Assembly (NCBI RefSeq): GCF_019891175.1 | Contig: NZ_CP072600.1 | Coordinates: 5,704,001 to 5,768,000 of the forward strand | DNA length: 64,000 nt | Direction: 5' to 3' | Origin: Leptothermofonsia sichuanensis E412 | GTDB lineage: Bacteria; Cyanobacteriota; Cyanobacteriia; Leptolyngbyales; Leptolyngbyaceae | Shown here: in pieces, positions 40,989 to 63,235 of the stretch | How the letters are laid out: each line of letters opens with the position of its first letter | How positions within the stretch are numbered: the stretch's first letter is position 1 | The notes under the pieces: model-generated | The model's database searches: none | Told to the model about the DNA's origin: nothing | The model's input: only the letters and a program-made list of their open reading frames with translations | Made by a program: the position numbers and the translations under genes

Positions 40989-41326
40989 TACAAAATTCCT
41001 GGATTCCAATGGGAACCCAAGTTGCGTTTTATTCAGTTAATCAAGGGGTTGACGGTTCAGGGTAAGCTCCAATCATTGACTTTGCGATTTGTGGTGGGTT
41101 AGCAGATAACCCTGGAAGTGAGTCTAAAGATAAAGCAAATTAGACAAGCTTCAGCCAAAATTTTTAGGCAAATTAATCTTCAACGAAAAGCTTTGGCGGA
41201 ATTAAGGATGCATTTTTCTAGGATTAAGGCGAATCAGGTTTAAGCGTGTGCTCATCTGTAAAGATACTCCCATCCATTATGACGTAAGAATTCTTAATTC
41301 GATGCCATCTAGCAAAATTTTTGGGT
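40989..41326. other. Intergenic region between tatD and rpoB
   Basis: 338 bp, AT-rich, without an ORF I trust. It separates rpoB from the tatD stop on the same strand, so it should hold the tatD-side transcription end and possibly extra rpoB control sequences. I see no strong hairpin with a T-run. Confidence 0.5.
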
Positions 41327-42163
41327 TCAGTCAACAGTACTACAGGTTAATGATGACAGAGGCGACTCCAGTGCTTGAATAGAGGGAAGGTTGAACAGCG
41401 TGCAGGCGTTTCGTGTCGTTTGTTCAGCCAGCTCTTCCAGGGGGATATCCCGCAGCCGGGCAACCTGTTGAGCAACATACTGCACGTAGGATGGCTCATT
41501 CCGCCGTTCGCCCCGCTTAGGAACAGGTGACAGAAATGGGCAGTCTGTTTCAATCAACAGGCGATCGCTCGGCACCATTTTGGCTGATTCCTGCACCTGG
41601 GTGGCACTTTTAAACGTCACGATGCCGCTGAAACTGATGTAAAATCCCAGTTCCAGAAACCACCTGGTTTCTTCTGGAGTGCCACTCCAGCAGTGCATGA
41701 CACCAGCAACAGGTCCCTGTTGCTGCCAGATAGAGCGTAACCATTCCGCCATTGGAGCCGCTGCGTCGCGGCAGTGAATGATCACGGGTAACCTCAGTTG
41801 GCGAGCAATGGCCAACTGGGACTCGAATGCCTGCCTTTGCTGCTCGTGGTTGCTGGCTTTGAAAAAGTCCAGCCCCGTCTCACCAATGGCCACCACCCGT
41901 TGATCGGATTGTGCCAGTCGCAAAATTTCCTGAGGCGACTCTGCCGTCCACCGCTCTTCCACATCCAGGGGATGCAGCCCGACTGCAAAAGACAATTCCG
42001 GGTAGCGATCCGCGATCGCCCGAATCCCGGCAAATTCAGCAGGCTCCACGCAGGAATGGACAAGGCGCACTACTCCGGCTTTACGCCAGCGAAATGCCAC
42101 CTCATCCAGATCTGCCTGGAAGGTATCAAGGTTGATATGAACGTGGGTATCAATCAACTGCAT
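41327..42163 (-). CDS. tatD: TatD family metal-dependent DNase/hydrolase
   Basis: 278 residues. TIM-barrel hydrolase with the family's metal ligands: H7 and H9 (D-T-H-V-H), E95 (G-E-T-G-L-D-F), H130 (I-I-H-C-R), H157 (M-H-C-W-S-G) and D207 (E-T-D-C-P-F-L). Homologues are 3'-5' exonucleases and deoxyribonucleases involved in DNA repair or turnover. The C-terminal last about 15 residues extend past the usual end. It lies downstream of rpsT on the same strand (68-bp gap) and upstream of rpoB; rpsT-tatD-rpoB is an order I recall from other cyanobacteria. Confidence 0.93.
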
Positions 42164-42231
42164 GGGATCGGGGGGCGACGGGTTAAAAGCCAGGGATGGA
42201 AGTTGGGGCCAACAACCTGAAACCTTACACC

Positions 42232-42537
42232 CTAAGAAGCCACCGATTGAGAAGCTTCATGCTGTTTCAACGCCCGAGCCAGACGAGACTTTTTGCGCGC
42301 GCCCGTATTGGGGTGGAGCGCCCCACGTTTGACTGCCTTGTCAATCTTGCTGTAGGCAGACGCCATACTCTGTTGCACTTCTTGCATCAGCTCAGGGCTG
42401 GGGTCGGCAGCATAGTTGTTAACGGCCGTAAAGCATTTCTTCATCAGGGTCTTGACCGCTGATTTGTAACTCTTGTTCCTTAGACGATTGCGCTCAGCAA
42501 TCTGAACCCGCTTGATGGCAGACTTAATATTAGCCAC
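42232..42537 (-). CDS. rpsT: 30S ribosomal protein S20
   Basis: 101 residues. [21 protein letters not shown] at the start and [16 protein letters not shown] at the end are diagnostic. It binds 16S rRNA in the small-subunit body. Length fits cyanobacterial S20, which carries a slightly longer tail. Upstream (42538-42640) an AT-rich stretch with tagtatgat about 85 bp before the start may carry its promoter. Confidence 0.97.
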
Positions 42538-42767
42538 AGTAAATCCTGAAGACTCTATCGATTGAACTCTGATCTATTGAACTCTGTTGGACAGACATCC
42601 ATCATACTAGATAAATTAATATAGCATCTCCTAAAAGTGATTCGTGATCCCCTGAAATTACAGGTTAAGCTAGAGTAACGAGTACAGGTGCATCGACATC
42701 ATCCTGTCGAAATCGTTAAAATCTGTTCTCGACCGGGCAACTCCTTAAGACTGGCATTCCTAATTCC

Positions 42768-44069
42768 ATGTTGCGAATTATTACTCAGCGATCTGAGGCG
42801 CGAATCGAACTGCTACGGATCTGTGAGCGCACCCATGACGATCAGGTCGTCCACAAGGAGGCAACGGTGCGGGAGGTGCTTCAAACTGTGAAGCGCCAGG
42901 GAGACAAGGCATTATTGCATTACACTTCAGAATTTGATCGGGTTGATCTGGCGCTTGAACATTTGCGTGTCAGTGGTTCAGAACTGGATGCGGCCTATCA
43001 GCAGGTTCCCAAGGATCTGTTGAATGCGATTCAGTTTGCCTGCCGCCAAATTGAGGCGTTCCATCGGCAACGGGTTCCCAAGAGCTGGGTTCATTTTGGG
43101 GAAGACGAGGTTGTCCTGGGTAAACGGTATACACCTGTGGATCGGGCGGGTCTTTATGTTCCTGGTGGGCAGGCATCCTACCCCAGTACGGTGCTGATGA
43201 ATGCCGTTCCGGCAAAAGTAGCAGGAGTGCCTCGCATTGTGATGGTGACACCACCGGGAGGGGAAGCGGGTATCAATCCGGCGGTGCTGGTGGCGGCTCA
43301 AGAGGCAGGAATCCAGGAAATTTATCGGGTGGGTGGGGCACAGGCGATCGCGGCGCTTGCCTACGGGACAGAGACCATCCCAAAGGTGGATGTGATTACA
43401 GGACCTGGCAACATCTACGTCACCCTGGCCAAGAAACTGGTCTTTGGGACAGTGGGGATCGACTCCCTGGCAGGTCCCTCTGAAGTCCTGATCATTGCGG
43501 ACAAAACCGCCAATCCTGCTTTTGTTGCAGCAGATATGCTGGCCCAGGCAGAGCACGATCAGTTGGCAGCCGCCATTTTGTTGACGGATGACTCGGTACT
43601 GGCACGAAAAGTGGTGGAAGAGGTGGAACGCCAGTTAGTGGACCACCCCCGTCGGCTGCTGACAGAAAAGGCGATCGCCCACTATGGGCTGGTTGTCGTG
43701 GTTGAATCCCTTGAGGTTGCTGCCGAACTGTCGAATGATTTTGCTCCAGAGCACCTGGAACTGGAAATTGAAGATCCCTGGGCACTCCTGGAAAAAATTC
43801 GCCATGCTGGAGCTATTTTCCTGGGACGCTCCACGCCAGAAGCCGTAGGCGATTACCTGGCTGGACCTAACCACACCCTGCCAACCTCCGGGGCTGCTCG
43901 CTATGCTTCTGCCTTGAGCGTTGAAACATTTTTGAAGCATTCCAGCCTGATTCAATATTCTCCGACGGCCTTGCAGAAAGTGGCTGGGGCGATCGATGTG
44001 CTTGCCAGGGCAGAGGGTCTTCATTCCCACGCTGAATCGGTTCGGTTAAGGGTTGAGCGCGATGATTGA
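42768..44069 (+). CDS. hisD: Histidinol dehydrogenase
   Basis: 433 residues. Catalyses the last two steps of histidine synthesis, histidinol to histidine, with NAD and zinc. Conserved: [16 protein letters not shown] near 125, T-G-P-G-N-I-Y-V near 210, [11 protein letters not shown] near 240, A-Q-A-E-H-D near 262 (zinc Gln/His), N-D-F-A-P-E-H-L near 325 (catalytic Glu/His) and [14 protein letters not shown] near 366. Single, divergent from rpsT. Full length; ATG 42768. Confidence 0.98.
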
Positions 44070-44088
44070 AGCTAGAACACCAGTACAG

Positions 44089-44150
44089 AAATCGGATTTC
44101 TTCTACCAGATACCCAGATTTCGTTGAATTTCTCACCAGAAATCCGATTT
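44089..44150 (+). terminator. hisD terminator hairpin
   Basis: AAATCGGATTTCT (44089-44101) and AGAAATCCGATTT (44138-44150) are perfect 13-bp complements with a 36-nt loop, and TTTTTT follows immediately. It starts 19 bp after the hisD stop. The stem shares ATCGGA with the hairpin at 12934. Confidence 0.7.
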
Positions 44151-44339
44151 TTTGGAATTTTGAACCGATGCTCTAGAAGTTAATCCCCTGTTAATCTTCA
44201 GGTTGGAGATAGGGAAGTTCCAGTCACTGATCTGACAGGTCCTACTCTAACCTCTACCACCTGACCCCTGGTTCCTGCTGTGAGCGTGGTGTCGTCCTGT
44301 GCTCTATCGCCAGGGTTATTGCCATCATAAAGCCTTTGC

Positions 44340-44444
44340 TATAGCAGTCCTAAAAGCAGTCCTAAAGCAGTTGTGAGAGTGAGAGGTTTTGTGAGAAAGC
44401 ATTCCTGGGGAATCCTTTCTCACAATCCAGATAGGAACGCTATG
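44340..44444. mobile_element. MITE-like palindromic element family 3, copy 2
   Basis: Reversed, diverged copy of 31357-31447. Ends TATAGCAGTCCTA and (reverse) CATAGCGTTCCTA. A perfect inner 11-bp stem TTGTGAGAAAG...CTTTCTCACAA lies at about 44389-44425. It ends about 30 bp before the first gene of the HerA/NurA operon and so occupies that operon's presumed promoter region. The rest of 44151-44339 holds nothing recognisable. Confidence 0.75.
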
Positions 44445-44474
44445 TTATGACCCAGGGATGTTCTGGATAAAGCT

Positions 44475-45209
44475 TTGTTTAAGCAGAGGCTGTTACTTTT
44501 AGCCTGTTCTCAGCGTAAGCGGTTGGATGCAGGACTGATGCCAGCGATCGATCGCTACGATGGTCCTGCCTTTCGATTACTGCGCCGATTTCTAAAGCAG
44601 GGTGCTGTTCAACCACCTGTAGTAAAAATTATTTCTGCAGAGTATGGCTTAATCTCCCTCGACTATCCATTGCCTTATTACGATCGCCGAATGACAAAAG
44701 AGCGAGCAAAAGTTCTTCAACCGGGAATCATTGCTGAGTTAAAGACCACTTTAAGTTACAAAACTTACACAAATCTTTTAATTTGGTTAGGACGAGATTA
44801 TTTTGAGGCAATCTATGGCTATGAGGCTATTATTCCGGACACATTGAACGTCCAGATTGCTCTGGGTGGAACAGGCAGAAAGTTGTCTATCTTGCATGAC
44901 TGGCTTTATGGGGATTCGTCCAATTTACGCAATGATCCAAATTTTGCATCCACTGGAGGCAAAGTTCGCATTCGAGGGGTTGAAGTGAATTTAACATCAG
45001 AACAAGTGCTTGATCTTGCAAGACGGGCGATCGTCGCAGGTGAGCGGGGAGTAAGCCGGTATCAATCCTGGTATGTACCCATCGATGATCAGCGAGTTGC
45101 CCCTAAATGGTTGGTGAGTCAAATTACGGGGTTACCTGTCAGCAGTTTTGTGACGGATGAAGCCCGAAGAGTCCTGGCTAAATTAGGAATCCTGGTAAAA
45201 CGTGTATGA
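44475..45209 (+). CDS. DUF6884 / YaaA-like protein, first gene of HerA-NurA operon
   Basis: 244 residues with a TTG start at 44475; a TGA at 44448 bounds the frame and no in-frame ATG precedes. The N-terminal about 140 residues match the DUF6884/YaaA-like superfamily: L-L-L-A-C-S-Q-R-K-R at the start (C11-S-x-R-K) and I-I-S-A-E-Y-G-L-I near 55, followed by P-Y-Y-D-R-R-M. Members include DNA-binding YaaA and proteins of 7-deazaguanine pathways. The C-terminal 100 residues hold a helical region with repeated V-L-D-L-A-R-R-A and R-R-V-L-A-K-L-G, possibly DNA-binding. It overlaps the NurA gene by 4 bp (ATGA). Likely works with the three genes after it; its precise role is unknown. Confidence 0.75.
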   Translation: MFKQRLLLLACSQRKRLDAGLMPAIDRYDGPAFRLLRRFLKQGAVQPPVVKIISAEYGLISLDYPLPYYDRRMTKERAKVLQPGIIAELKTTLSYKTYTNLLIWLGRDYFEAIYGYEAIIPDTLNVQIALGGTGRKLSILHDWLYGDSSNLRNDPNFASTGGKVRIRGVEVNLTSEQVLDLARRAIVAGERGVSRYQSWYVPIDDQRVAPKWLVSQITGLPVSSFVTDEARRVLAKLGILVKRV

Positions 45210-46708
45210 ACCAGCAGAATGGGCAAAAGCGCCGCTTCACAGAAGAGGGAATTCGTCAGGAAATCCAACAGCAACCTCATCTGTTTGCAAAGCTGGCTGA
45301 AAATGCTCTGACTGTTGCTGAGAGCCTGCGGAATAACTACTTCAAAAATACGGCTCAATTCGTAAAGGCTTTGCGACTGGCAATCCATCAATTTGAAGCA
45401 GGAGAACGCACCGATCCAATTCTCAAAATTGAAGCCGTAAAAGATATAAGCTGGTCAGATGTTAAAGATGAAGTTGTTACGTTTATTGATGGGGGGGTGG
45501 GGCAAGTACAGATTTCCAGCCAGATTCCTATTCTTTTGAGAGTTGGCTCTTACTCCGTAAAAACAGGAGAGCGCCAACTGGCCAAACGGGAGGAGTTTGG
45601 ATATTACCCAATTATTTTGGGCGACTTAGAAGGAGGTAGTAAAGACCGAAAAGATTTTACGGACATTGTTAGAATCACAGCAGAGCTATTAGGGGGCTTA
45701 TCGGCGTTAGAACGCACGCCAGATCTCAAATTGCTGATGTTTCATGGTCCCCTAGTGTACACAGTCTGGCATTACATGGGGCACACTCCTTTTACTGAAA
45801 AAGATATCGATCTCTTTCTCAACCAGTATGCAGAGAATCCCCAACTGGCTCAGCAATTGAAAGAAGACTTCCTGGAAGAAGCAAAAATAGACATCTATCC
45901 CAAAATGGCTCCGGATCGATCCGATGAGTGGATCAGGCAAAGAGTCTTTGAGCCATTAGCCTGGATGTCATTTTTGTTGCGAGAACTGATCAAAAGAGCA
46001 AAGATACGTTCTCCCAGTCCCATGATTGTTGGTGTTGTGGAAAGGAGCACCATTTTTCGAGAGTTCAGCGAAACGATCTTACTTGAGCGCGTTTTTCAAG
46101 GACTTCGAAGAAAGAATAAAGAGGATTACTTTAATCGTATTTATGGCTGGTCTGATTTAAGCTCTCCACGTGCCCTCTTGGAAAAATTGGGCTATACCGA
46201 CACCCTGTTACTTGCGATGCTCCTCCAGCCAGGGCAGTTTTCTGAATCGTGGGTCATTAACAAATATGGAGGATTCAGCAGAAGTGAAATATCTTTGCCT
46301 GGAGAATCTTTCTTCAGCGTAGCTAACTGGAATTGCCTCAGACCCGATAACACGATGGGATTTCCCAGAGTTCGTGGTTTGTATGTTCATGTTTCTGATA
46401 CAACGGATCCTTTGCGGGTTGAAGTATTTGATGAATTGGCAACGGATCAACACATTCAAGACATTACTCAGCGAGTCTATCTTTATGCTCGACTTTTGCC
46501 GGGTTATGGATTCCCAGTGGGGTTAGATATTGTTGATAAGTATGCTCATGTGCCGAACTGGATGACGGATGCATACAGCAAAATTATTAAATATCAATTG
46601 AGCAGTAGCTTACAACGTGGGGAAATTAATGATGCAGAAATGCGTCAAATTTTGATTCAAGCAATCTATATGACAAAGCGAGACTGGTTGTTCCGTCCCC
46701 AATATTAG
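45206..46708 (+). CDS. NurA-domain nuclease
   Basis: 500 residues. The NurA fold is suggested by V-T-F-I-D95-G-G (metal-binding Asp), F-H-G-P-L-V-Y near 178, G-V-V-E-R-S near 274 and the family's terminal region G-Y-G-F-P-V-G-L-D-I-V-D-K-Y-A-H-V near 432-448. NurA is a 5'-3' exonuclease and single-strand endonuclease that works with the hexameric HerA ATPase to resect DNA ends in archaea. In bacteria NurA-HerA pairs are mostly found in accessory or defence loci. The insertion between the first two motifs is longer than in archaeal NurA (about 340 residues). Starts inside the stop of the DUF6884 gene; HerA follows after 12 bp. Confidence 0.83.
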   Translation: MNQQNGQKRRFTEEGIRQEIQQQPHLFAKLAENALTVAESLRNNYFKNTAQFVKALRLAIHQFEAGERTDPILKIEAVKDISWSDVKDEVVTFIDGGVGQVQISSQIPILLRVGSYSVKTGERQLAKREEFGYYPIILGDLEGGSKDRKDFTDIVRITAELLGGLSALERTPDLKLLMFHGPLVYTVWHYMGHTPFTEKDIDLFLNQYAENPQLAQQLKEDFLEEAKIDIYPKMAPDRSDEWIRQRVFEPLAWMSFLLRELIKRAKIRSPSPMIVGVVERSTIFREFSETILLERVFQGLRRKNKEDYFNRIYGWSDLSSPRALLEKLGYTDTLLLAMLLQPGQFSESWVINKYGGFSRSEISLPGESFFSVANWNCLRPDNTMGFPRVRGLYVHVSDTTDPLRVEVFDELATDQHIQDITQRVYLYARLLPGYGFPVGLDIVDKYAHVPNWMTDAYSKIIKYQLSSSLQRGEINDAEMRQILIQAIYMTKRDWLFRPQY

Positions 46709-46720
46709 CGGAGAAAACAT

Positions 46721-48511
46721 ATGGTTGAATCGATTAAGAACCAGAGGGCTGCTCAAACGGCACCCTCTCAAACCCAGCAAATAACCCGATATGTTGGAAC
46801 GCTAGTTGGTGAAAGTACCAGTCGGGAGTTTCGTCTGGCCGTTGCCCATGAGGAAATTCGTGAGCAGGATATTATCGCCGTTGACGCTGAATTACGGAAA
46901 CCCGGCAGTGATTCAGAACTGGAACACATTGGAGTTTGGGCGAAGGTTCAGCGGATTGAACGAATCAATCCGCTGTTTCCATCGGAAGCCGGACACGAAC
47001 TGGCTGCAACCCGCACAACTCCATTTGATACTGTCCTGTCATTAAGTCGCGAAATGGTTACGGCGGTTTGCCAGATTTTGGGTTCTGAACCTCTGAATGG
47101 TAGTTCAGGCGGCAAGCTGGATCACCTGCGCTATCCTCCCCAACCTGCTTCCAGTGCTTATCGTCCTGATTCTAAGGATATTGCTCGTGTTGTGCTGGGA
47201 GAACTGGAACAGAAACAGAACCGCGCTCTAGATATTGCGACTCTCTCAAATCGCCCTGAAGTGGATGTCAAAGTGAATGGTCACGCGATCGTCAGTCGCC
47301 ATTTAGCGATTTTGGCGATGACTGGTGCTGGAAAAAGCTGGACAGCACGACGGATCATTGAAGAATTAGCCCACAAAAATTATCCAATTGTTATTTTTGA
47401 TCCCCATGGTGACTATACAGGACTAACAGATGTTCCAGGCTTAAACGTATCACGCTACTATGCTCAGTTTCCTGTTTTTGATGAAGATAGTGAAACAATT
47501 GCTGAAATTGTAAGTGCACTTGGCTACTCTCTATCCGATACTATGCGGAGTCGTTTTCCCGATGTAGCACGGGCGGCCAAGTCTTTTTATATTGGTGATC
47601 TACAAGATAGAGAAATGATAGATAGAGTGAACTGGTTAGCTGACTGCATCAATAGAGAGTGGTTAAAACAACGTGGAGTTGAGCCAAATCTATGGCTAGT
47701 TGGTAATCTTGCAGAAGCTGGTGAAATTGTCATACGTGAGGGGAATAACGAAGGCAAAAAACTTCTAAGTGATTGGGGTTGGAATAATATTGATAACTAT
47801 TCAAGAACTGACATACGCACACTTGAAGCAATCAAAAAGCGTACCTATCGCGCTGCTGCGACATTACAGCGAATGGAGCAAATCAACCAAAAGATTGCCC
47901 GTACTGCCAATCCTCTTCCAACCGATCGAACGGAATTAGTTAAATATGGACAAGTAAGTGTTGTATCACTAGCTGGCTATACCAGTGATTTTCAGGCTAC
48001 GATTTATAGTCTGGTTGCAAATGATATTTTTAATGCCCGTGTTCAAGATACCTTGAAGCTTCCAGTTCTTTTTTTGCTAGAAGAGGCCCATAACTTTGTT
48101 CCAGGTCGAGCAAACACTACTGCTGAACAAAATTCAATTGCTACAACTAAACAAATTGCTCAGGAAGGTCGTAAGTTTGGGGTAGGTCTGATTCTAATTA
48201 GCCAGCGCCCTTCACGATTGGATGAGACAACTCTAGCGATGTGCAACTCTTATATCATCATGCGGATGGTCAACCCGGCGGATCAGAACTTTGTTCGGAA
48301 GGTGATTGAAAGTTTGGGAGAAGATGAAGCTAAGATGCTGCCAGATCTGGATGTTGGTGAAGCGGTTTTATCTGGACAGTTGATCAACTTTCCGGTGCTG
48401 GTTCGAATTAAGAAGCCGCAATCTAGCGGTGAGCGTGAAGAAAAAGATGCGTTTGAGGCGCTTGAAGAAGCTCATCGTGCTAGCATTTCCTCCAGTGATG
48501 TGAGGAGATAG
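46721..48511 (+). CDS. HerA-family DNA-translocating ATPase
   Basis: 596 residues. An N-terminal HAS-barrel-like region (about 20-130, beginning R-Y-V-G-T-L-V-G-E-S) precedes a FtsK/HerA-type RecA core: Walker A M200-T-G-A-G-K-S-W-T, F-D-P-H-G-D-Y near 226, Walker B V-L-F-L-L-E-E-A-H-N-F near 447 and Q-R-P-S-R-L-D near 500. HerA forms hexameric rings that pump DNA into NurA. The core is complete. The middle third (nt 47460-48200) is more AT-rich than either end. Middle gene of the four-gene operon; 5 bp separate it from the next gene. Confidence 0.92.
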   Translation: MVESIKNQRAAQTAPSQTQQITRYVGTLVGESTSREFRLAVAHEEIREQDIIAVDAELRKPGSDSELEHIGVWAKVQRIERINPLFPSEAGHELAATRTTPFDTVLSLSREMVTAVCQILGSEPLNGSSGGKLDHLRYPPQPASSAYRPDSKDIARVVLGELEQKQNRALDIATLSNRPEVDVKVNGHAIVSRHLAILAMTGAGKSWTARRIIEELAHKNYPIVIFDPHGDYTGLTDVPGLNVSRYYAQFPVFDEDSETIAEIVSALGYSLSDTMRSRFPDVARAAKSFYIGDLQDREMIDRVNWLADCINREWLKQRGVEPNLWLVGNLAEAGEIVIREGNNEGKKLLSDWGWNNIDNYSRTDIRTLEAIKKRTYRAAATLQRMEQINQKIARTANPLPTDRTELVKYGQVSVVSLAGYTSDFQATIYSLVANDIFNARVQDTLKLPVLFLLEEAHNFVPGRANTTAEQNSIATTKQIAQEGRKFGVGLILISQRPSRLDETTLAMCNSYIIMRMVNPADQNFVRKVIESLGEDEAKMLPDLDVGEAVLSGQLINFPVLVRIKKPQSSGEREEKDAFEALEEAHRASISSSDVRR

Positions 48512-48516
48512 AGGGT

Positions 48517-49542
48517 TTGGAAATCGTTGCTGGAACCACGTTGAGTGCGCTCAAGCCGCACGTTTGGGACCCTGAATCTAAGCATTATCTGCCTGAATTG
48601 CGGGCAATCATGGTGTCCTATGCTGACTTTCATAAAATGCCTGCTCGCAGGCGTAAAGCAATGGAGCAGGGGCTTCATTGTTACTTAGGTGTTCCCAGCC
48701 ACATCAAAATCTATCTGGACAATGGAGCGTTCTACTTCATTAGCCATGGAGGAGAAACGCCTATCAAGGAATATGTTGAATTTGTCAAACATGCTCAGCC
48801 TGATTGGTTCCCAATTCCGCAGGATTTTATTCCCACCCCTAAGATGGCTCTTGAAGAGCAACGGGAGTGTCTTAATCTCACGATGGATATGAACCGTCGC
48901 TTCAGACAGGGTGATTATATACCGGTTATCCATATCAGCACATTACTGGAGGAGTATGTTGATTGTTTGAAGTCATATAAGCCCCTCATGCAGAAGGATG
49001 CGATCGCCCTTGGAGGAATTGTCCCTAACCTGCTGAAAGCTCCCAAAGCAATGCATCCGCAAAAAGTTTTGGAAAGTCTTATCCATGTCCGCCAACAGTT
49101 TCGAGATAAGAAACTGCATGTCTTTGGCATTGGAGGAACCATTACTCTTCATATCGCAGCCTTGTTAGGCATCAATTCAGTTGACTCCAGTGGCTGGCGC
49201 AATCGAGCAGCGCGGGGTATTGTGCAATTGCCCGGAACGGGCGATCGCATGGTTGCCAATTTGGGTAGCTGGCGCGGTCGAGAACCTGATGCCAGTGAAT
49301 GGAAAATACTGGCTGAGTGTCAGTGCCCAGCCTGTAAACAGTATGGACTTGAAGGCTTAAAAGCAAATTTGGTTCAAGGTTTTCGTAATCGAGCGACCCA
49401 TAATCTTTGGGTTCTTCTAGAGGAAGCCCGGCTGATTCAGCAGAATCGAGTGGATGGTACTTATGAAGACTGGTATGTCACTCATTTAGATAACACAAAT
49501 TATCGCTCATTGATTGATCAAATTATCGCTTCAGAGAGATAA
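48517..49542 (+). CDS. tRNA-guanine transglycosylase-like (DpdA-like) protein
   Basis: 341 residues from a TTG at 48517, 5 bp after the HerA stop and behind gagatagaggg; the next Met is residue 32. TGT superfamily marks: L67-D-N-G-A-F (equivalent to the S-D-S-G-G-F substrate Asp), I-A-L-G-G-I-V near 163 (L-G-G-L-A-V in TGT), N220-S-V-D223-S-S-G (the nucleophilic Asp position) and a zinc site C268-x-C270-x2-C273-x21-H295. It diverges strongly from housekeeping queuosine TGT and is shorter. That fits DpdA-type enzymes, which exchange guanine for a 7-deazaguanine in DNA. Its substrate here, DNA or tRNA, is not proven. Last gene of the operon. Confidence 0.82.
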   Translation: MEIVAGTTLSALKPHVWDPESKHYLPELRAIMVSYADFHKMPARRRKAMEQGLHCYLGVPSHIKIYLDNGAFYFISHGGETPIKEYVEFVKHAQPDWFPIPQDFIPTPKMALEEQRECLNLTMDMNRRFRQGDYIPVIHISTLLEEYVDCLKSYKPLMQKDAIALGGIVPNLLKAPKAMHPQKVLESLIHVRQQFRDKKLHVFGIGGTITLHIAALLGINSVDSSGWRNRAARGIVQLPGTGDRMVANLGSWRGREPDASEWKILAECQCPACKQYGLEGLKANLVQGFRNRATHNLWVLLEEARLIQQNRVDGTYEDWYVTHLDNTNYRSLIDQIIASER

Positions 49543-49622
49543 GAATACCGGGCAACGATGGGCGCGACTCAAACAGAGCCTCTGAGTCGCACCCCCATGG
49601 ATATTTGGGTCTTGAATACGTC

Positions 49623-50138
49623 TTATTGCCTGCGCCAATAATGAGCGGTCATGAACTGCTGCCACTGTCCGTCATCTCTCAGCATGTGGGAGGTTAAGAC
49701 TCGATGATTGTCGCTCTTGAACTCGATCACGTCTTTGTATTTTCCCAGTTTCTCCTCACCTGTCATAACAGGTCCATCCGAGTTAAGCGTCAGCACTGTT
49801 TCAGAAGCATCCAGTTCACCGTCGTATATCCAGAGATAGGTCATCATTGAGCCAACCCAGGTGCCCACATATCGCTGCTTCTGGGGGTCGTAGCCAAGGG
49901 TCATCAGCGTTGTTGCAGGACCAGTGCAGGGCATCTCACCCTGTCCTTCTGCCAAAATCCACAGGCCACCCAGCGATCGCACGGTCTCAGTTCCCGTGGT
50001 TTTTACAGGGGGTTGATCAGGTCCCATTAGAGCTTCAGTTTCATAGGTCCACTCACCAACAAGTTTTTGGAGCCATTGATGTTCTTTTTGCGGTTGAGCA
50101 GGCATGGGTGAGGTTTGTTCGGTTTGAGTGGTTTCCAT
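49623..50138 (-). CDS. DUF1579 domain protein
   Basis: 171 residues from ATG 50138, chosen because aaggagat lies 7 bp upstream; the open frame continues to 50255. After a low-complexity Thr/Gln/Pro start comes the DUF1579 pattern: H-Q-W-L-Q-K-L-V-G-E-W-T-Y-E, then R-S-L-G-G-L-W-I-L-A-E-G, M-T-L-G-Y-D-P-Q-K-Q-R-Y-V-G-T-W-V-G-S-M-M, and S-H-M-L-R-D-D-G-Q-W. It is a lipocalin-like barrel of unknown function. Its orientation and neighbours (VOC, YCII, SnoaL remnants) suggest it belongs to the group controlled by the ECF42 sigma factor at 52440. Confidence 0.85.
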   Translation of the reverse strand: METTQTEQTSPMPAQPQKEHQWLQKLVGEWTYETEALMGPDQPPVKTTGTETVRSLGGLWILAEGQGEMPCTGPATTLMTLGYDPQKQRYVGTWVGSMMTYLWIYDGELDASETVLTLNSDGPVMTGEEKLGKYKDVIEFKSDNHRVLTSHMLRDDGQWQQFMTAHYWRRQ

Positions 50139-50359
50139 TGTGGATCTCCTTGTGATGAATGATTGAGAAGTGCGATCGCAATCGAGTTGACTTAAAAGTG
50201 TTGAATCTTTACCCGTAGGTCGGCTTTTGCGGATACCCAGGCGGTGAGTCTTCAAAGTCTTCTTGCCGTCAGTAGGGGGTCATATCCAGCAGTGGTGCTG
50301 AATAGCAGTATGAATTGGAACGCAGTTTCAATTTATACAACACTCAATCCATACCGAAA

Positions 50360-50485
50360 TCAGCAATCCCTATCCAGCAGGCTGTAGGAGTCGGTGAGGG
50401 ATTCAACGCCACGGGCATAGGTTGAGTATGTGTGGAAAACATCTTTTGCAACAACTTTTGGATGGGCAGTTGCATTCTGAATCAT
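50360..50485 (-). pseudogene. DUF899 (thioredoxin-like) gene with internal deletion
   Basis: A 41-codon frame with a good ribosome-binding site (tatggagattcac before ATG 50485). The first about 12 residues ([12 protein letters not shown]) look like a DUF899 N-terminus. They run directly into [15 protein letters not shown], which is the diagnostic C-terminal segment of that family, followed by T-D-S-Y-S-L-L-D. Normal members have about 230-260 residues, so some 190-200 codons have been removed while start and end remain in frame. Confidence 0.75.
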
Positions 50486-50512
50486 TGTGAATCTCCATAA
50501 ATAGTAAAAAGC

Positions 50513-50923
50513 TCAAGCGACTTGCTCACAGTTGACCATCCAGGGTGTCCCGAACCGATCAATCAACATGCCAAAACGAACTGACCAGAAGGTTTGAGCG
50601 ATCGCCATTTTCACGTTGCCGTTTTCTGCCAGAGCATGAAAAATTCGTTCGGCTTCGGCGGGTTCAGGTACACTCACCTGCACGTAGAAGCCCTGAGGGG
50701 GTTCAAAATATCCCGGTGGGCAGTCAGAACCCATCAGGAGGCGATCTTCCAGTTCAAGACAGGCATGCATGATTTTGTCATGCCACTCCGGTGGAATATT
50801 TTCTGCCGAAGGTGCTTCTTTGTGCGTCATCATCATAGTGATTTTGCCGCCAAGACAGTGCTCGTAGAACTTGAACGCGGCCTCACAATTCCCGTTGAAC
50901 ATGAGATAAGAATTGATTTTCAT
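50513..50923 (-). CDS. VOC family protein (PhnB/glyoxalase-like)
   Basis: 136 residues. Opening M-K-I-N-S-Y-L-M-F-N-G-N-C-E-A-A-F-K-F-Y, then L-L-M-G-S-D near 65 and the final F-G-M-L-I-D-R-F-G-T-P-W-M-V-N-C are typical of PhnB/3-demethylubiquinone-methyltransferase-like VOC proteins. These are small dimeric barrels of mostly unknown activity, very often linked to ECF sigma factors and YCII proteins as here. Complete. ATG 50923 behind a weak gga. Confidence 0.9.
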   Translation of the reverse strand: MKINSYLMFNGNCEAAFKFYEHCLGGKITMMMTHKEAPSAENIPPEWHDKIMHACLELEDRLLMGSDCPPGYFEPPQGFYVQVSVPEPAEAERIFHALAENGNVKMAIAQTFWSVRFGMLIDRFGTPWMVNCEQVA

Positions 50924-51008
50924 GATGGATTCCTTTGGTGATTTGTTTTTCCAGGAGCGGGTTTATGTCATCGCTTTAGGGGTTGCAATCGGTCTATCAA
51001 ACCCACCC

Positions 51009-51242
51009 TTACAGACAGGTTGGTTCGAGCGTGAATACAGCTTGAGAAGTCGCTGGATTAAAGGGCACCGAAATGTGTTCACTTTGAAACGGTGGTTTGA
51101 CATCAAAAATTACAATTTCATCCGCATAGCGAGACAGGATTTGCTCTATATCTCTGGTACAAATTGATCGTTGTTGAGCTGCAACTAGCTGGCGGATTTC
51201 AGCTTCCTGGGTTGGGATTGTCCTGGCAGTGGTCATGACCAT
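51009..51242 (-). pseudogene. SnoaL/NTF2-like protein with probable internal deletion
   Basis: 77 codons from ATG 51242 (aagggagaa before it). The first 55 or so residues (E-A-E-I-R-Q-L-V-A-A-Q..I-L-S-R-Y-A-D-E-I-V-I-F-D-V-K-P-P-F) are the start of a SnoaL-like polyketide-cyclase-fold protein. The next residues (H-I-S-V-P-F-N-P-A-T-S-Q-A-V-F-T-L-E-P) look like the family's C-terminal strand. Family length is about 130-150, so roughly 60 central residues are missing. It lies between VOC and YCII genes of the same strand. Confidence 0.7.
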
Positions 51243-51363
51243 TTCTCCCTTAAATGAATTGTCTGGGTATGGATTGCATACCGACATCAAGATTCTGGAA
51301 GTCCTACGGATTCCCTTTGGTGTTCGATTTCCTGTTGTGATGGTGGGTCGTTTGAAGATGACG

Positions 51364-51795
51364 TTACTTTTGCTGTCGCGTTTCAAGCTGGACGCGAATG
51401 CGGTCTTCCTGCTCCCTTAATTCGGGTGTCAGGGCTTCACCAAAATCCTCTGCCTCGAATATGGGTCGGATCTCAATCTCGGAGTCTCCTGGCATAGGGT
51501 TGGGACAACGCTTCACCCAGGCGATCGCCTCCTCAATAGAGTCCACCTGCCACAGCCAGTACCCTGCCACTAGCTCCTGCGCTGGAGTGAAAGGTCCCTG
51601 AGTGACGGTGCGTTCTGTGCCTGAAAATTTTACCCGCGCCCCTTTTGAACTGGGATGAAGCCCCTCACCAGCGAGCAAGATACCTGCCCTGGCTAATTCT
51701 TCGTTGTACTGCCCCATTTCAGTCAAAAGCTGTTCGCCTGGCATAATCCCAGTTTCGGAGTCCTGGGTTGCTTTGACAAAGACCATAACTTTCAT
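51364..51795 (-). CDS. YCII-related (DGPF) protein
   Basis: 143 residues from ATG 51795 (gaaatttcacaggag-type leader: caggagatttcaca precedes it); the frame is open to 51834. M-K-V-M-V-F-V-K-A at the start, V-T-Q-G-P-F near 70 (the DGPF motif position, here QGPF), Y-W-L-W-Q-V, and E-I-E-I-R-P-I-F. YCII-fold ferredoxin-like protein of unknown activity. This group is the standard genomic partner of ECF42 sigma factors. Confidence 0.9.
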   Translation of the reverse strand: MKVMVFVKATQDSETGIMPGEQLLTEMGQYNEELARAGILLAGEGLHPSSKGARVKFSGTERTVTQGPFTPAQELVAGYWLWQVDSIEEAIAWVKRCPNPMPGDSEIEIRPIFEAEDFGEALTPELREQEDRIRVQLETRQQK

Positions 51796-51830
51796 TGTGA
51801 AATCTCCTGTTGAAAAGTTTTTCCTCACGT

Positions 51831-52187
51831 TCAATGAGCTGGTAATCCCGCAATTTCAAGGACAGGGCGAACTTCGACCGTGCCGACTCGCGCTCCTGGA
51901 ATACGGGTGGCGATCGCAATGGCTTCATCCAGATCCTGGGCATTCACCAGATAGAACCCGCCCAATTGCTCACGGGTTTCAGCAAACGGTCCATTCGTCA
52001 CCAGGGATTTACCGTCACGGACACGAACACTGGTAGCTGTTGCAACAGGATGGAGGGGAGCAGATGCCACAAATTGTCCCTTTGTATGAAGATCCTGGGC
52101 GAGTTGGATGGATTCTACGTAGCAATGCTCCCGCTCAGTGTCGCTCATGGCGTTTTCGTTCATGTAGATCAGCAGTAGATATTTCAT
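51831..52187 (-). CDS. YCII-related (DGPF) protein, first gene after the triple promoter
   Basis: 118 residues. M-K-Y-L-L-L-I-Y start, V-T-N-G-P-F-A-E-T-R-E-Q-L-G-G-F-Y near 64 (NGPF at the DGPF position) and V-E-V-R-P-V near 106 define the family. Full length. The start has a strong aaggaggctattga ribosome-binding site. It lies directly behind three promoter-like repeats (52209-52412) and next to the ECF42 sigma factor gene on the other strand, so it is the most likely direct target of that sigma factor. Confidence 0.93.
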   Translation of the reverse strand: MKYLLLIYMNENAMSDTEREHCYVESIQLAQDLHTKGQFVASAPLHPVATATSVRVRDGKSLVTNGPFAETREQLGGFYLVNAQDLDEAIAIATRIPGARVGTVEVRPVLEIAGLPAH

Positions 52188-52208
52188 TCAATAGCCTCCT
52201 TTGTCATT

Positions 52209-52237
52209 CAGTCGAATGGGAATTACTCAAATCGACA
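52209..52237 (-). promoter_or_regulatory. ECF42-type promoter repeat 1
   Basis: On the minus strand TGTCGA (52237-52232), 17 bp, then CGACTG (52214-52209). This agrees with the ECF42 consensus as I recall it (TGTCGA at -35 and CGA-T/C at -10). About 20 bp separate the -10 from the YCII start codon at 52187. Confidence 0.75.
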
Positions 52238-52290
52238 TCTCGTTGGAAATTTTTTATTCAGCACGATCGAGCTTTGCCTGCTTTGTCAGT

Positions 52291-52319
52291 CAGTCGAACG
52301 GCAACTGCCCAAATCGACA
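52291..52319 (-). promoter_or_regulatory. ECF42-type promoter repeat 2
   Basis: Same motif and spacing: TGTCGA, 17 bp, CGACTG on the minus strand, 82 bp upstream of repeat 1. The spacer also keeps the pattern tttgggcagttgccgtt, so the units are copies of one ancestral segment. Confidence 0.72.
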
Positions 52320-52383
52320 CCTGTCAAAAACTTAATTTTATAGTACAATTGTACTTTAGTGCCATTGTATTCCTTTTGTAAGC

Positions 52384-52412
52384 CAGTCAAATGGGAAATC
52401 CTCAAATCGACA
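52384..52412 (-). promoter_or_regulatory. ECF42-type promoter repeat 3
   Basis: TGTCGA, 17 bp, TGACTG on the minus strand, 93 bp upstream of repeat 2. The -10 has one change from repeats 1 and 2. It lies 28 bp before the sigma factor start on the other strand, so sigma and target promoters overlap in one control region. Confidence 0.68.
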
Positions 52413-52439
52413 CCTTTCCAAAAAACTTTGTGTCTTTTT

Positions 52440-53708
52440 ATGACAGGTATGGCTTCAACCTCAAAATCAGATGTAGCTCAAGCAATTTCCGATCTCCATC
52501 GCACCGAATGGGGACGTATTGTCGCCATCCTGATTCGTCTGCTGGGAGATTTTGACCTGGCTGAAGAAACCGCACAGGAAGCGTTTGCAGCCGCAATCAA
52601 TCAGTGGTCAACCAAGGGTATTCCCGATCGTCCCCGTGCCTGGATCATCCGAACTGCAAGGTATAAAGCAATCGATCACCTGCGACGGCGAACCCGACTG
52701 ACGGAAAAATTGGAGTGGTATGCGGCGTCGGGGCTGATTCCATCGAGCGAGGAACCCACCTACGACAGTGATGAAATTTCAGACGATCGCTTGCGCCTGA
52801 TCTTTACTTGCTGCCATCCCGCACTGGCGATCGAAACCCAGGTAGCATTGACCCTGCGGATGCTGGGTGGACTGGAAACCGACGAAATCGCCCGCGCCTT
52901 TCTGGTTCCCACAGCGACAATGGCGCAACGACTGGTCCGTGCCAAACGCAAAATTCGGGATGCAGGTATTTCCTATAAAGTGCCAGAAACAACCAATCTC
53001 GCTCCTCGGATAGAGGCCGTATTGGCAGTTATCTATCTCATCTTTAACGAAGGCTATGCTGCCACAAAAGGGGATTTAATGGTGCGGGCAGACCTCTGCA
53101 CCGAAGCAATTCGACTGGGGCAACTGCTGCGACAATTGATGGCACCCCACCCCCCATCAGAAGTCACAGCACTGGTGGCATTGATGTTGCTGCATGACTC
53201 ACGTCGCGATGCCCGTCTGGATGAAGCAGGCGATCTGGTTTTGCTGGAAGATCAGGATCGAAATCGCTGGAACTACCCGCAGATTGCTGAAGCGTTACCC
53301 CTGGTGGAAGAAGCATTGCGTGGCGGAACAGGAGTTTATGCCCTGCAAGCCGCGATTGCTGCCCTCCATTGTCAGGCAGCCCGTGCCGAAGAAACCGACT
53401 GGGCACAAATTGTGCAACTCTATGAGGTGTTGGAACGTCTACAGCCTTCACCTATCGTGACTTTGAATCGAGCGGTGGCGATCGCGATGGCGGACAGTCC
53501 TCAAGCCGCATTTGGACTGATTGATCAACTGACTCCAGAACTGGACAGCTATCATCTATTTCACGCCAGCCGTGCAGATTTATTCCGGCGTGTCGGAGCA
53601 TTAGAGGAAGCAACCCAGAGCTACAGACGAGCACTGGAATTGGTGACAAATGATAGTGAGCGTCGCTTCCTGAAACGTCGGCTACATGAAGTTCAGTTTG
53701 GTTCGTAG
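52440..53708 (+). CDS. ECF42-type sigma factor with C-terminal extension (DUF6596)
   Basis: 423 residues from ATG 52440 (ATG 52449 also possible); the frame is open to 52359. Region 2: [24 protein letters not shown] near 25-48 and [14 protein letters not shown] near 70. Region 4: F-T-C-C-H-P-A-L-A near 120 and [14 protein letters not shown] near 158. The long C-terminal domain opens with [10 protein letters not shown] near 200, a hallmark of ECF42, and carries TPR-like helices needed for activity in that group. No anti-sigma gene is present, as is usual. It should drive the YCII genes divergent from it. Confidence 0.92.
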
Positions 53709-53794
53709 CTCTGTAGCGATCAGGCAGATCGGGCCAGGGTGCGTCTGTGCGAAGAGTCTACGGGATGCCATTGATCACTGTGCGGTGGTCGTTG

Positions 53795-53883
53795 GTGGGT
53801 CGTCCACCCTTTGGACTGGATTTGGGTAAGAGAGGTTATGATTTTGGAGTTTTCAACCCGCAAAATAATTCTTGACAGACCAC
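53795..53883. mobile_element. MITE family 2, copy 2 (about 89 bp, diverged)
   Basis: Reversed relative to 31159-31251. Shared core gattttggagttttcaaccc and end TTCTTGACAGACCAC. The left end (gtgggtcgtccac) is decayed. It lies just upstream of the 5' fragment of a TIR-domain gene. The remaining bases from 53709 to 53915 hold no gene. Confidence 0.7.
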
Positions 53884-53915
53884 CAGTTTCCTCTTTTGCC
53901 CTGAAGGAAGGTTTT

Positions 53916-53941
53916 ATGTCAGAGGTGTTTATCTCCTACTC
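53916..53941 (+). pseudogene. 5' end of a TIR-domain gene, cut by IS982
   Basis: ATG 53916, behind gaaggaag, codes M-S-E-V-F-I-S-Y-S-R, the standard first strand of bacterial TIR domains, and then runs into IS982 copy A. The same stretch (one T/C difference) precedes IS982 copy B at 59247-59271, where the rest of the TIR gene follows. The remainder of this copy is missing. Confidence 0.8.
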
Positions 53942-54619
53942 ACGCGATGTGCAACTAATCGCAAAGAAAAGGTTTCATCTCCAGGCACTAGAGCTATCAA
54001 GGATTCTAGTGTTTTAGGAGGATGAAACCATGTTTGACATCGAAGAGTTTATCATTGCCGTCTATCTGTGCGTTGAGCATCATCTCGAATCGTTACTGAG
54101 CCTGTATCCTCCGCGCTCACGCGGCTTCGCGCCGGGCTTGAGCGACCGCGAAGTGCTGACCCTGGAAATCGTCGGTGAGGTTTTAGGCTATCACCACGAT
54201 AGCGAGATTTGGAAATATTTCCGGCGGCACTGGCGCGCCTGGTTTCCCAAGTTGGGGCATCGCAGTACCTTTGTCCGACAAGCGGCTAATCTTTGGCAGT
54301 ACAAACAGTTGCTGCATCAGCGCCTGATTGAGTCCCTGGAAGCAGACCAGCAAACCCTCTATCTCGTTGATGGGTTTCCCATGCCGGTGTGCGGCTTTCA
54401 GCGGGCACCCCAAGCCCGTGTCTTTCAAGGATTCGCCAGCTTTGGTCGCTCTGCTACCAAACGTGGCACCTTCTATGGCTTTCGTGGGCATCTGTTGAAC
54501 AATGCCCAGGGAGTGGTCCTGGGTTTAGCCCTCACCGCCGCCAACGTCGATGAGCGAGACGTGGTGCCGGAGTTGACCATCGGACTTGAGGGACTCTTGC
54601 TGGGCGATAAAGGCTATAT

Positions 54620-62840: not shown

Positions 62841-63235
62841 CGTCCTTCTTCCGCCTGATTCGTTGCCAGAAATTGCTTTAAGCGCAGCAAACTTAAAGTC
62901 TGACTCAAGTTCAGGGGCAATAAGGAAACCCCTTCCAACCTGGACTGAACCCAACCTTCACCCCACGACCATTCGTGATAGCCATCGATTCCCCCACTTA
63001 ACAGCAGGCGCAGGCAATTTTCCTCCAGCCGCTCGACATAATGCTGAATGGAAACAGGACCCACCCAACTGGTATAAGTCAATCCCGTTTTCAACAGCTC
63101 TGGCAAACCAGAATCGATCCGGGCGGGAGCTAACCACCGCTGAAGTTTAGTGGGCTGAGTCAGGCTTTCCCGCAAAGCCGCTTCAGACGCAGGGATTTCA
63201 ATTCGGAGGCTACTCTGCTGAAAAGTACCGAGCAT
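62837..63235 (-). CDS. Conserved hypothetical protein (possible SRPBCC-like fold)
   Basis: 132 residues from ATG 63235, chosen because M-L-G-T-F-Q-Q-S-S-L-R-I-E-I-P-A-S begins a natural first strand; the frame is open to 63295. L-R-E-S-L-T-Q-P-T-K-L-Q-R-W-L-A-P near 20-40 and alternating strand-like segments ending in G-W-V-Q-S-R-L-E-G recall START/SRPBCC proteins. I recognise it as conserved in cyanobacteria but cannot assign a function. Its stop overlaps the WD40 stop by 3 bases in convergent orientation. Divergent from hslO. Confidence 0.65.
   Translation of the reverse strand: MLGTFQQSSLRIEIPASEAALRESLTQPTKLQRWLAPARIDSGLPELLKTGLTYTSWVGPVSIQHYVERLEENCLRLLLSGGIDGYHEWSWGEGWVQSRLEGVSLLPLNLSQTLSLLRLKQFLATNQAEEGR

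Follow-up and report, generated by a model that had tools for sequence, protein, structure and literature searches.

The four-gene cassette

The window, by which we mean the whole 64,000-nucleotide stretch of DNA that was analysed, contains four co-directional genes, A to D (Table 1), whose spacings of -4, 12, and 5 bp over positions 44475-49542 were reproduced from the open reading frames. The motifs named in the initial annotation were found again, namely CSQRK and SAEYGL in A; FIDGG in B; MTGAGKS (Walker A) and LFLLEEAH (Walker B) in C; and CxCx2C...H in D. Its statement that the dpd helicase and PLD genes are absent from the cassette was also borne out, with Pfam placing only NurA and HerA between A and D. 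The dpdD-K restriction genes were thus not found between A and D, and the ORF list at 41000-54000 of the window includes no helicase-sized unassigned ORF. There is no tRNA gene in the window, and promoter and terminator counts fell below the shuffle means.

Table 1. Genes of the cassette, in window coordinates
Gene	Position	Strand	Product	Start codon	Assignment
A	44475..45209	+	244 aa	TTG	DUF6884 / DpdC-like, YaaA-type fold
B	45206..46708	+	500 aa		divergent NurA-family nuclease, FIDGG motif
C	46721..48511	+	596 aa		HerA/FtsK-type translocase ATPase
D	48517..49542	+	341 aa	TTG	TGT-fold transglycosylase, own clade nearest DpdA

Gene D is a TGT-superfamily protein nearest to DpdA

Gene D matches the Pfam TGT family (3.3e-10, 40.0 bits, cutoff 26.3), and it has the residues of the TGT superfamily, which align with those of archaeosine TGT. 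D68, D103, and D223, as well as C268/C270/C273/H295, are invariant in all 13 aligned rows, window included; we take D68 and D223 to be the catalytic aspartate pair, D103 the base-recognition aspartate, and CxCx2C-H the zinc site. By model-based fold comparison, D appears closest to archaeosine TGT (Z 22.8 over 300 residues, 3.3 Å), tied with human QTRT1 (Z 22.7); DpdA 7ui4 was not among the best 50 fold matches, an absence that is uninformative. The best PDB sequence match is likewise archaeosine TGT, a tRNA enzyme (6.4e-10), with the solved DpdA 7ui4 at 6.2e-4. D scores below the cutoffs of the NCBIfam DpdA model (31.4 bits, cutoff 200), the Tgt model (18.8 bits, 306.75 needed), and the TgtA model (45.8 bits, 350 needed).

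A profile of D matched six of six DpdA proteins and none of 13 tRNA Tgt proteins at E <=10, while the DpdA profile matched all 13 D proteins (5e-13 to 7.5e-7) and also 5/13 Tgt (3.7e-6 to 2.2e-4), and the Tgt profile matched no D. D and DpdA fell on one side of the tree when long-branch rows were kept (support 95/79), with D as a separate clade. They also stood together opposite the tRNA enzymes (support 99/95) in a reduced tree, which left out three long-branch rows (STSV1, L062, and L063) and seven near-duplicates (five Tgt and two D) and which rejected a D+Tgt clade (p 0.0125); for both trees, the program warned that long-branch joins may be false. The earlier view that D is closer to DpdA than to the tRNA enzymes is upheld by the D-side profile matches, the 99/95 branch, and the rejected D+Tgt clade. 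The 13 host Tgt proteins form a clade that excludes D, and neither the models nor the trees class D as a tRNA Tgt, a result still compatible with an RNA substrate. All 13 carriers searched (of 15) have a separate canonical Tgt.

Gene A is related to DpdC

Gene A matches Pfam DUF6884 (1.2e-9, 38.9 bits, cutoff 30) and contains CxxxK (CSQRK) and SAxxG (SAEYG) motifs, with an additional C-terminal portion starting at about residue 160. Its AlphaFold model (mean pLDDT 80.1) suggests a similarity to AF0587 (Z 10.5, 120 residues, 3.2 Å) and to E. coli YaaA (Z 9.8, 142 residues, 3.5 Å), the next match having Z 6.7. Foldseek also ranked AF0587 best (6.8e-4); YaaA was not among its best 50 matches, which is uninformative. 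A PDB sequence search with gene A returned only ferritins, at E >0.5.

DUF6884 is the dpdC domain according to a passage of PMC11888242. In cyanobacterial proteins that fuse DpdC to DpdA, the gene A profile matches the DpdC portion at full-sequence E values of 4.8e-10 to 7.4e-6, and in five genomes the A and D profiles match both parts of one fused DpdC-DpdA protein, in which DpdA lies above its model cutoff. With Pfam above cutoff and these profile matches, gene A is assigned as a DpdC-like (DUF6884) partner of Dpd type. The initial annotation had cast A as a base-processing partner, an idea that the dpdC domain and the profile matches favor, but it had overlooked the DpdC counterpart. Another DUF6884 protein, YfjM of B. 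subtilis, is listed among DNA-lesion binders in part of PMC11701544, where a model of it flips a nucleotide.

Genes B and C encode an additional NurA-HerA pair

Gene B contains a NurA domain (Pfam 9.4e-8, 32.3 bits, cutoff 21). Gene C is a HerA protein, as judged from its Walker motifs and a HerA central domain (DUF87) above the curated cutoff (1.2e-25, 91.4 bits, cutoff 23.2), and it matches PADLOC HerA at 2.8e-59. In a genome-wide NurA search, gene B scored 24.4 bits versus 154.7 and 151.9 for two other NurA genes; two other HerA-type genes are also present. Given these stronger NurA and other HerA genes, the cassette pair is distinct from the housekeeping pair of the host. A viral sequence scan with type I NurA (defined below) gave no relative. 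HerA-NurA acts on DNA ends, according to a passage of PMC9960219.

The ends of the cassette are constant and its middle is exchanged

Of 15 distinct cellular D loci (window included), all 11 with enough contig have a co-directional A gene upstream of D, a pairing beyond chance; in the other four, the contig ends inside the cluster. The expectation that the genes co-occur in other genomes thus held for A and D, joined at every sufficiently long locus, whereas that of a fixed four-gene set did not: the effector is exchanged, giving three or more architectures, of which NurA-HerA is one. A is always first and D always last. The middle consists of NurA-HerA in type I; of another HerA and a protein that we call X in type II; and of HerA-like, Mre11-like, and Rad50-like genes with a CapP-like peptidase in type III. 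Nodosilinea LEGE 07088 carries type I, and Calothrix PCC 7103 carries type III. The D phylogeny rejects a single clade for type I and for type II, in a test whose groups were set by architecture and for which the D branch had already been seen in an earlier tree. The cassette occurs in 5/386 genomes of the phylum (E 1e-8); in 8/8 same-family genomes examined it is not beside hisD, and one copy resides on a mobilizable plasmid.

Protein X is 539-554 aa long (longest ORF). The copy of locus L013 had no match in Pfam (E <=0.1) or in PADLOC or PHROGs (E <=1; best 0.29). A five-copy profile retrieved only arginine deiminase (0.76) from PDB sequences and nothing when compared with the type I NurA profile (probability 0.1), and a viral sequence scan with protein X gave no relative. 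Its SSDVSQHRS and RDGSL motifs look NurA-like by eye, a resemblance that we regard as tentative. In type III, a 352-aa protein contains FIDG and has no family match in Pfam, PADLOC, or PHROGs, and the HerA-like protein scores 21.0 bits in Pfam, below the 23.2 cutoff, and 2.3e-5 in PADLOC. A sigma-like gene also lies below its family cutoff.

Phage and plasmid settings, and supply of the base

A phage contig with a P22-type coat and terminase (L088) carries an intact D and just a scrap of HerA, as is expected if D protects DNA. In the residue alignment, this copy keeps the same catalytic, base-recognition, and zinc residues. Another phage contig, L102, encodes YhhQ-QueC-DUF6884-TGT in a row; its D-like TGT is not recognised by Pfam and has no zinc site in the alignment. 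Two haloarchaeal plasmids that were examined bring a DUF6884 gene and a D-like TGT together with either a gene annotated as a queuosine precursor transporter or one of the QueD family.

In the complete genome of the window, YhhQ is absent and QueC is represented by no more than a distant relative (102.7 bits) whose PP-loop is altered; preQ0 for the host's own DNA may therefore not be produced. QueC was found in 16/20 same-family genomes at 197-246 bits, and three others of the 20 are also without it; canonical QueC is present in 11/13 carriers searched (181-265 bits). The DndB/DpdB family PF14072 had no matches in the whole genome of the window or in three other carriers, so DpdB is absent from these; some DndB-family gene is present elsewhere in the genome in 9/13 carriers.

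Proposed function and alternatives

We read the cassette, with a probability of roughly 60%, as a DpdB-less Dpd-type 7-deazaguanine DNA-marking restriction system with interchangeable HerA-based translocase-nucleases, and it is probably a system of self/non-self defence. In the mechanism that we infer, the substrate of D would be DNA, with D replacing guanine in the host genome by preQ0 or a closely related 7-deazaguanine, and the DpdC-like A would act on the nitrile of that base through a C-x3-K active site, or would read the base. HerA, a putative dsDNA translocase, would load together with NurA on DNA without the mark, which would then be degraded. A and D would form the constant marking pair, and the translocase-nuclease would be the exchangeable part. 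If this reading is true, the 7-deazaguanine marking of DNA can move between systems as a unit and be coupled to degradation machineries that are unrelated to each other, and HerA-NurA gains a role in defence in which a marked base is the guide. More tentatively, and at somewhat less than even odds, D could be a further DNA-acting transglycosylase lineage beside DpdA and phage DpdA2, independent of DpdB, which with its DpdC-like partner would serve as a plug-in self-marking module that cells join to varied HerA-based degraders, including a Mre11-/Rad50-like set under a CapP-like switch. On this more tentative view, the base written in hosts without canonical QueC may be other than preQ0 or ADG, for example, 7-carboxy-7-deazaguanine or the product of the QueC-like paralogue.

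Some phages carry 7-deazaguanines in their DNA, and an unlikely alternative is a type IV-like system, in which A and D act on such foreign DNA (D exchanging or removing the base, or A flipping and reading it), HerA-NurA destroys it, and host DNA is unmodified. The possible inability of the window's genome to make preQ0, lacking canonical QueC and YhhQ, would suit this reading, as would the lesion-binding, nucleotide-flipping YfjM in part of PMC11701544. However, canonical QueC is present in 11/13 carriers, the intact lone D of phage contig L088 fits protection and not attack, and in L102 the DUF6884-TGT pair accompanies QueC and YhhQ.

More doubtful is a DNA-repair operon, in which HerA-NurA resects breaks, A binds lesions, and D serves as a transglycosylase that modifies tRNA or moonlights. 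In its favor, HerA-NurA and Mre11-Rad50 function in repair, Mre11-/Rad50-like genes are added in type III, and archaeosine TGT leads the PDB sequence matches of D. This reading is opposed by the two stronger NurA genes of the genome and its two further HerA-type genes, by the patchy occurrence of the cassette (5/386 genomes, with one copy on a plasmid), by the position of D outside the tRNA Tgt clade, and by the separate Tgt that all 13 searched carriers have. We know of no precedent for a transglycosylase that tags non-self DNA, which counts against the least probable reading. Here D would mark invading or damaged DNA with an odd base for degradation by HerA-NurA; the action of HerA-NurA on DNA ends (a passage of PMC9960219) and the retention of A and D with any effector accord with it, but a phage-borne D would harm its carrier.

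Relation to known systems

Dpd and HerA capture systems are already known kinds; what is newly seen here is a set of at least three architectures with constant A and D ends and an exchanged middle. Dpd islands (DpdA-DpdK) resemble the cassette in joining a TGT-fold enzyme and a DUF6884/DpdC partner to an adjoining nuclease and ATPase, and homology links A and D to the respective parts of fused cyanobacterial DpdC-DpdA. The cassette differs in that the genome of the window is without DndB/DpdB, there is no helicase or PLD gene, D forms a separate clade (31 bits versus the 200-bit DpdA cutoff), and the effector is HerA-NurA and exchangeable. If the proposed function holds, the four genes would offer a small system for studying how self is distinguished from non-self in TGT-based restriction, free of the eleven-gene dpd island and of DpdB.

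Passages of PMC12839542 describe BREX-related capture (BRC) systems, which comprise PglZ, DUF6079, STAND, DUF4007, HerA/FtsK, GNAT, and TGT. These share with the cassette a HerA/FtsK translocase and, in a subset, a TGT, with a proposed 7-deazaguanine self-marking. In Pfam searches of the cassette proteins alone, however, none of the four matched PglZ, DUF6079, STAND, DUF4007, or GNAT; BRC systems are without DpdB and DpdC in the same passages, whereas the window has a DpdC relative; and NurA, present in the cassette, has no occurrence in the text available from that paper. The earlier claim that no system of exactly this composition is described must be narrowed accordingly, the HerA and TGT association being already in print for BRC. 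In the open-licence literature, we found no report of DpdA with HerA and NurA or of NurA and HerA with tRNA-guanine transglycosylase; from 2015 onward, tRNA-guanine transglycosylase, HerA, and defense led only to PMC12839542. The QueC-family paper PMC13329287 yielded no passage on DpdA, HerA, NurA, TGT, DpdC, or cyanobacter, and an ArcS motif lead found no passage in the literature.

In HerA/FtsK capture and two-gene DUF4297-HerA defence, HerA likewise feeds a nuclease against invaders, according to passages of PMC10853773 and PMC11291478, but TGT, transglycosylase, deazaguanine, and NurA do not occur in the available text of PMC10853773, whereas the cassette has a TGT. HerA-NurA(-Mre11-Rad50) end resection, as presented in parts of PMC9960219 and PMC5715905, is echoed by the NurA-HerA middle of type I and by the Mre11-/Rad50-like genes that type III adds; the cassette differs in that A and D enclose this middle, its occurrence is patchy, and the same genome has separate, stronger NurA and HerA genes.

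Identity of the cassette genes

All four products of the cassette, namely A (a DUF6884/DpdC-like protein), B (a NurA nuclease), C (a HerA ATPase), and D (a TGT-fold transglycosylase), scored above curated Pfam cutoffs, and the co-directional arrangement described in the initial annotation was confirmed, with spacings of -4, 12, and 5 bp in the ORF call.

Coordinates of the cassette and of the other features discussed
Feature	Locus	Position	Strand	Remark
Cassette A-D	window	44475-49542	+
Gene A, DUF6884	window	44475-45209	+	above curated Pfam cutoff
C-terminal part of A (residues about 160-244)	window	44950-45206
Gene B, NurA	window	45206-46708	+	above curated Pfam cutoff
Gene C, HerA central domain	window	46721-48511	+	above curated Pfam cutoff; PADLOC HerA, 2.8e-59
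Gene D, TGT	window	48517-49542	+	above curated Pfam cutoff; PADLOC DpdA, weak, 4.6e-9
Small ORFs next to a sigma-factor-like ORF (named by eye)	window	49623-53708
Relative of small post-hisD ORF	window	62864-63235
QueC relative, window's genome	L054	6286-7041	-
Site of QueC relative, window's genome	G000:C1	3104375-3105019
Cassette remnant, Calothrix sp. FI2-JRJ7	L018	7137-7718, 8001-8336, 8367-9026
Haloarchaeal plasmid cluster	L010	4910-11701
Haloarchaeal plasmid cluster	L011	4907-11451
Repeated look-alike units, viral contig	L088	778-7323

DUF6884 is described as a distant YaaA relative with CxxxK and LSAxxG motifs (PMC11701544), and GATOR-GC equates the dpdC domain with it (PMC11888242). 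A contains CSQRK and SAEYG, and its model matched AF0587 at Z 10.5 and E. coli YaaA at Z 9.8, ahead of the remaining list (6.7 and lower). In PADLOC, A matched the candidate family PDC-M57A (1.3e-6); its DpdC match was not significant (0.023). The C-terminal part of A carries a conserved KWLVSQITGLPVSxF...ARRxLxxLG pattern and falls outside the alignments to DpdC parts; its best match, at only 0.15, was an uncharacterized 88-aa phage family, and this part of A is possibly DNA-binding.

The D model (mean pLDDT 68.8) aligned with archaeosine TGT over 300 residues (Z 22.8), tied with human QTRT1 (Z 22.7), and with bacterial Tgt at Z about 20. Seven residues, which line up with matching archaeosine TGT residues, are invariant in 13 rows, the window among them: Asp68 and Asp223, presumably the catalytic pair; Asp103, presumably for base recognition; and Cys268, Cys270, Cys273, and His295, which we take to be the zinc site. 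D reaches none of the three equivalog cutoffs tried (Tgt, TgtA, and DpdA). A separate canonical Tgt is present in all 13 carriers searched (of 15 genomes with D). In a 38-row tree that included 13 Tgt and 6 DpdA rows, D forms its own clade (100/99), distinct from both, and a branch (95/79) separates D and DpdA from Tgt, archaeosine TGT, and haloarchaeal TGTs. With three long-branch rows and seven near-duplicates left out, support for this branch rises to 99/95, and the reduced set rejects a D+Tgt clade (p 0.0125); both trees carry a long-branch warning. The D profile matches all six DpdA and none of the 13 Tgt sequences. D lies nearer to DpdA than to tRNA Tgt enzymes, in line with the DpdA-like label first proposed.

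Among 386 genomes of the phylum, six have a DpdA above its model cutoff, and in five of these DpdC and DpdA form a single protein about 700 aa long. In full-sequence scores, the A profile matches the front part of this fusion at 4.8e-10 to 7.4e-6 and the D profile matches the back part at 1.5e-10 to 1.6e-4 (best single stretch weaker, 9.9e-8 to 0.2), so that A and D are separate counterparts of the two fused parts. A DndB-family gene lies near the fusion in both of the loci examined (G185 and G101); in the former, a same-family genome (L072, G185:C125), the QueC matches come in three pieces, one carrying a stop. Two other genomes of the phylum contain orphan TGT-like genes that match DpdA weakly (L062 in G278, 79.7 bits; L063 in G035, 69.8 bits), the G035 gene adjoined by a QueD-like ORF (by eye).

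Constant ends and an exchanged middle

A search of 386 genomes of the phylum at E 1e-8 detected D in five, the window's genome counted. D also occurs in 10 loci of the genome_contigs collection and on a mobilizable 40-kb plasmid, plasmid6 of Aulosira laxa NIES-50. Since L021 and G203 are both 27,482 bases with equal D scores, they were counted once, giving 15 distinct cellular loci, the window among them; in four (L014, L016, L017, and G118) the contig ends within the cluster. In all 11 remaining loci, A is found upstream of D and in the same orientation. The four-gene set proposed initially proved only partly fixed: it recurs elsewhere, and its middle differs in at least two further architectures. 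Type I, A-NurA-HerA-D, is found in the window, L012, L015, and, up to its contig end, L014. Type II, A-another HerA-X-D, is found in L013, L020, L021, L022, and L024; its HerA (508-554 aa) matches the window's at E 2.4e-15 to 1.1e-19, and X (539-554 aa) has no family match. Type III, in L009 and L019/L055, comprises, in order, A, a sigma-like protein, an unknown protein, an M78 peptidase (CapP-like in L009, 3.2e-17), a 352-aa protein, a HerA-like protein, Mre11-like and Rad50-like proteins, and D; the sigma-like and HerA-like assignments are below Pfam cutoffs, the L009 Rad50-like protein resembles Lamassu LmuB (5e-37), and L016 shows only the Rad50-like end.

With 12 of its 13 rows labelled, the D tree requires four changes of architecture where two are the minimum, and single type I (p 1.0e-5) and type II (p 1.6e-6) clades are rejected; the A tree (10 rows) requires three changes. 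The cassette thus keeps A and D constant and exchanges its middle. One of the 11 loci, L018, holds a cassette remnant in which A is shortened, D is split over two frames, and the middle is absent; L055 (Calothrix PCC 7103) has a complete type III set. A polA-like ORF (our reading) lies upstream in both.

The window's genome (6.43 Mb, one contig) contains two other NurA genes (154.7 and 151.9 bits; B scores 24.4) and two other HerA-type genes, so the cassette pair is not the housekeeping one. Cassette GC is 43-47%, compared with 50-56% in hisD; as the other flanks reach 46-50%, this is weak evidence that the cassette was transferred. Around hisD, eight of eight same-family genomes, one of the same genus, had no A-D matches (two contigs end 0.6 and 2 kb past hisD); in all eight, hisD is followed by a small opposite-strand ORF, a relative of which lies in the window. 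In G399 (L110), the region downstream of hisD contains relatives of the window ORFs at 49623, 50513, and 52359 in inverted order; the cassette may therefore border a local inversion.

Proposed function and precursor supply

The gene parts and their conservation are observed directly. In the mechanism we propose, D would exchange guanine in DNA (the most confident step), A would convert or read the exchanged base (the second), and HerA-NurA would destroy unmarked DNA (the least confident). HerA-NurA translocates on DNA and resects its ends (PMC9960219), and a HerA-nuclease pair is described as an anti-phage complex (PMC11291478). Homology of A and D suggests that the cassette works like Dpd, the 7-deazaguanine modification-restriction islands, yet it falls outside the Dpd systems as defined, because DpdB and the neighboring dpdD-K genes are missing from it. 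TGT beside HerA has been published for BREX-related capture systems, which, as presented there, are without DpdC, the text leaving NurA unmentioned (PMC12839542); the cassette has both NurA and the DpdC relative A. In the open-licence literature, we found no publication with this composition.

The main result against a simple reading, in which own DNA is marked with 7-deazaguanine, is the missing QueC. QueF is strong in 13/13 carriers searched, a QueD-family (PTPS) domain occurs in 12/13, and canonical QueC in 11/13; among these 13, it was not found in the window's complete genome or in G118. The sole QueC relative in the window's genome (102.7 bits) has the PP-loop LDGGYLS, compared with SGGMDS in phage QueC. 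Canonical QueC is present in 16 of 20 same-family genomes, including one of the same genus (242 bits), and was not found in the other four, the window's among them. Though its QueC relative is only distant, the window's genome retains QueF and Tgt, and G407 has a 102-bit match beside canonical QueC. YhhQ occurs in 1/13 carriers, and DndB/DpdB relatives lie somewhere in the genomes of nine, with none in the window's genome and three others.

Phage and plasmid relatives

Viral contig L102 carries, directly behind QueC and YhhQ, a DUF6884 gene (71.6 bits) that overlaps a D-like TGT by 4 bp; a ParB-domain gene and a terminase follow. The TGT matches the D profile at 6.9e-9, with no Pfam match and no zinc site seen in the alignment. 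Viral contig L088 encodes a P22-type coat protein and a terminase. It also carries an intact, 81% identical D preceded by a type I HerA scrap in one frame; the 17 kb searched gave no further A, B, or C matches. A phage retaining the marker gene alone would be expected of a protective modification, with which this D is consistent. Beside D lie repeated look-alike protein units and two PAPS-reductase-domain genes, which to us recall type IV-B CRISPR with cysH; CRISPR families gave no match there.

Of eight haloarchaeal plasmids matched, two were examined. Their DUF6884 matches straddle the cutoff of 30 (30.3 bits in L010, 28.7 in L011), and DUF6884 and TGTs lie beside an annotated queuosine precursor transporter in L010 and a 6-pyruvoyl-tetrahydropterin-synthase-family gene in L011. 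Both clusters, which look like a further TGT-based system, contain a degenerate TGT, DUF6884 (separate or fused), a second TGT, an unknown protein, and a BrxC/D-type ATPase.
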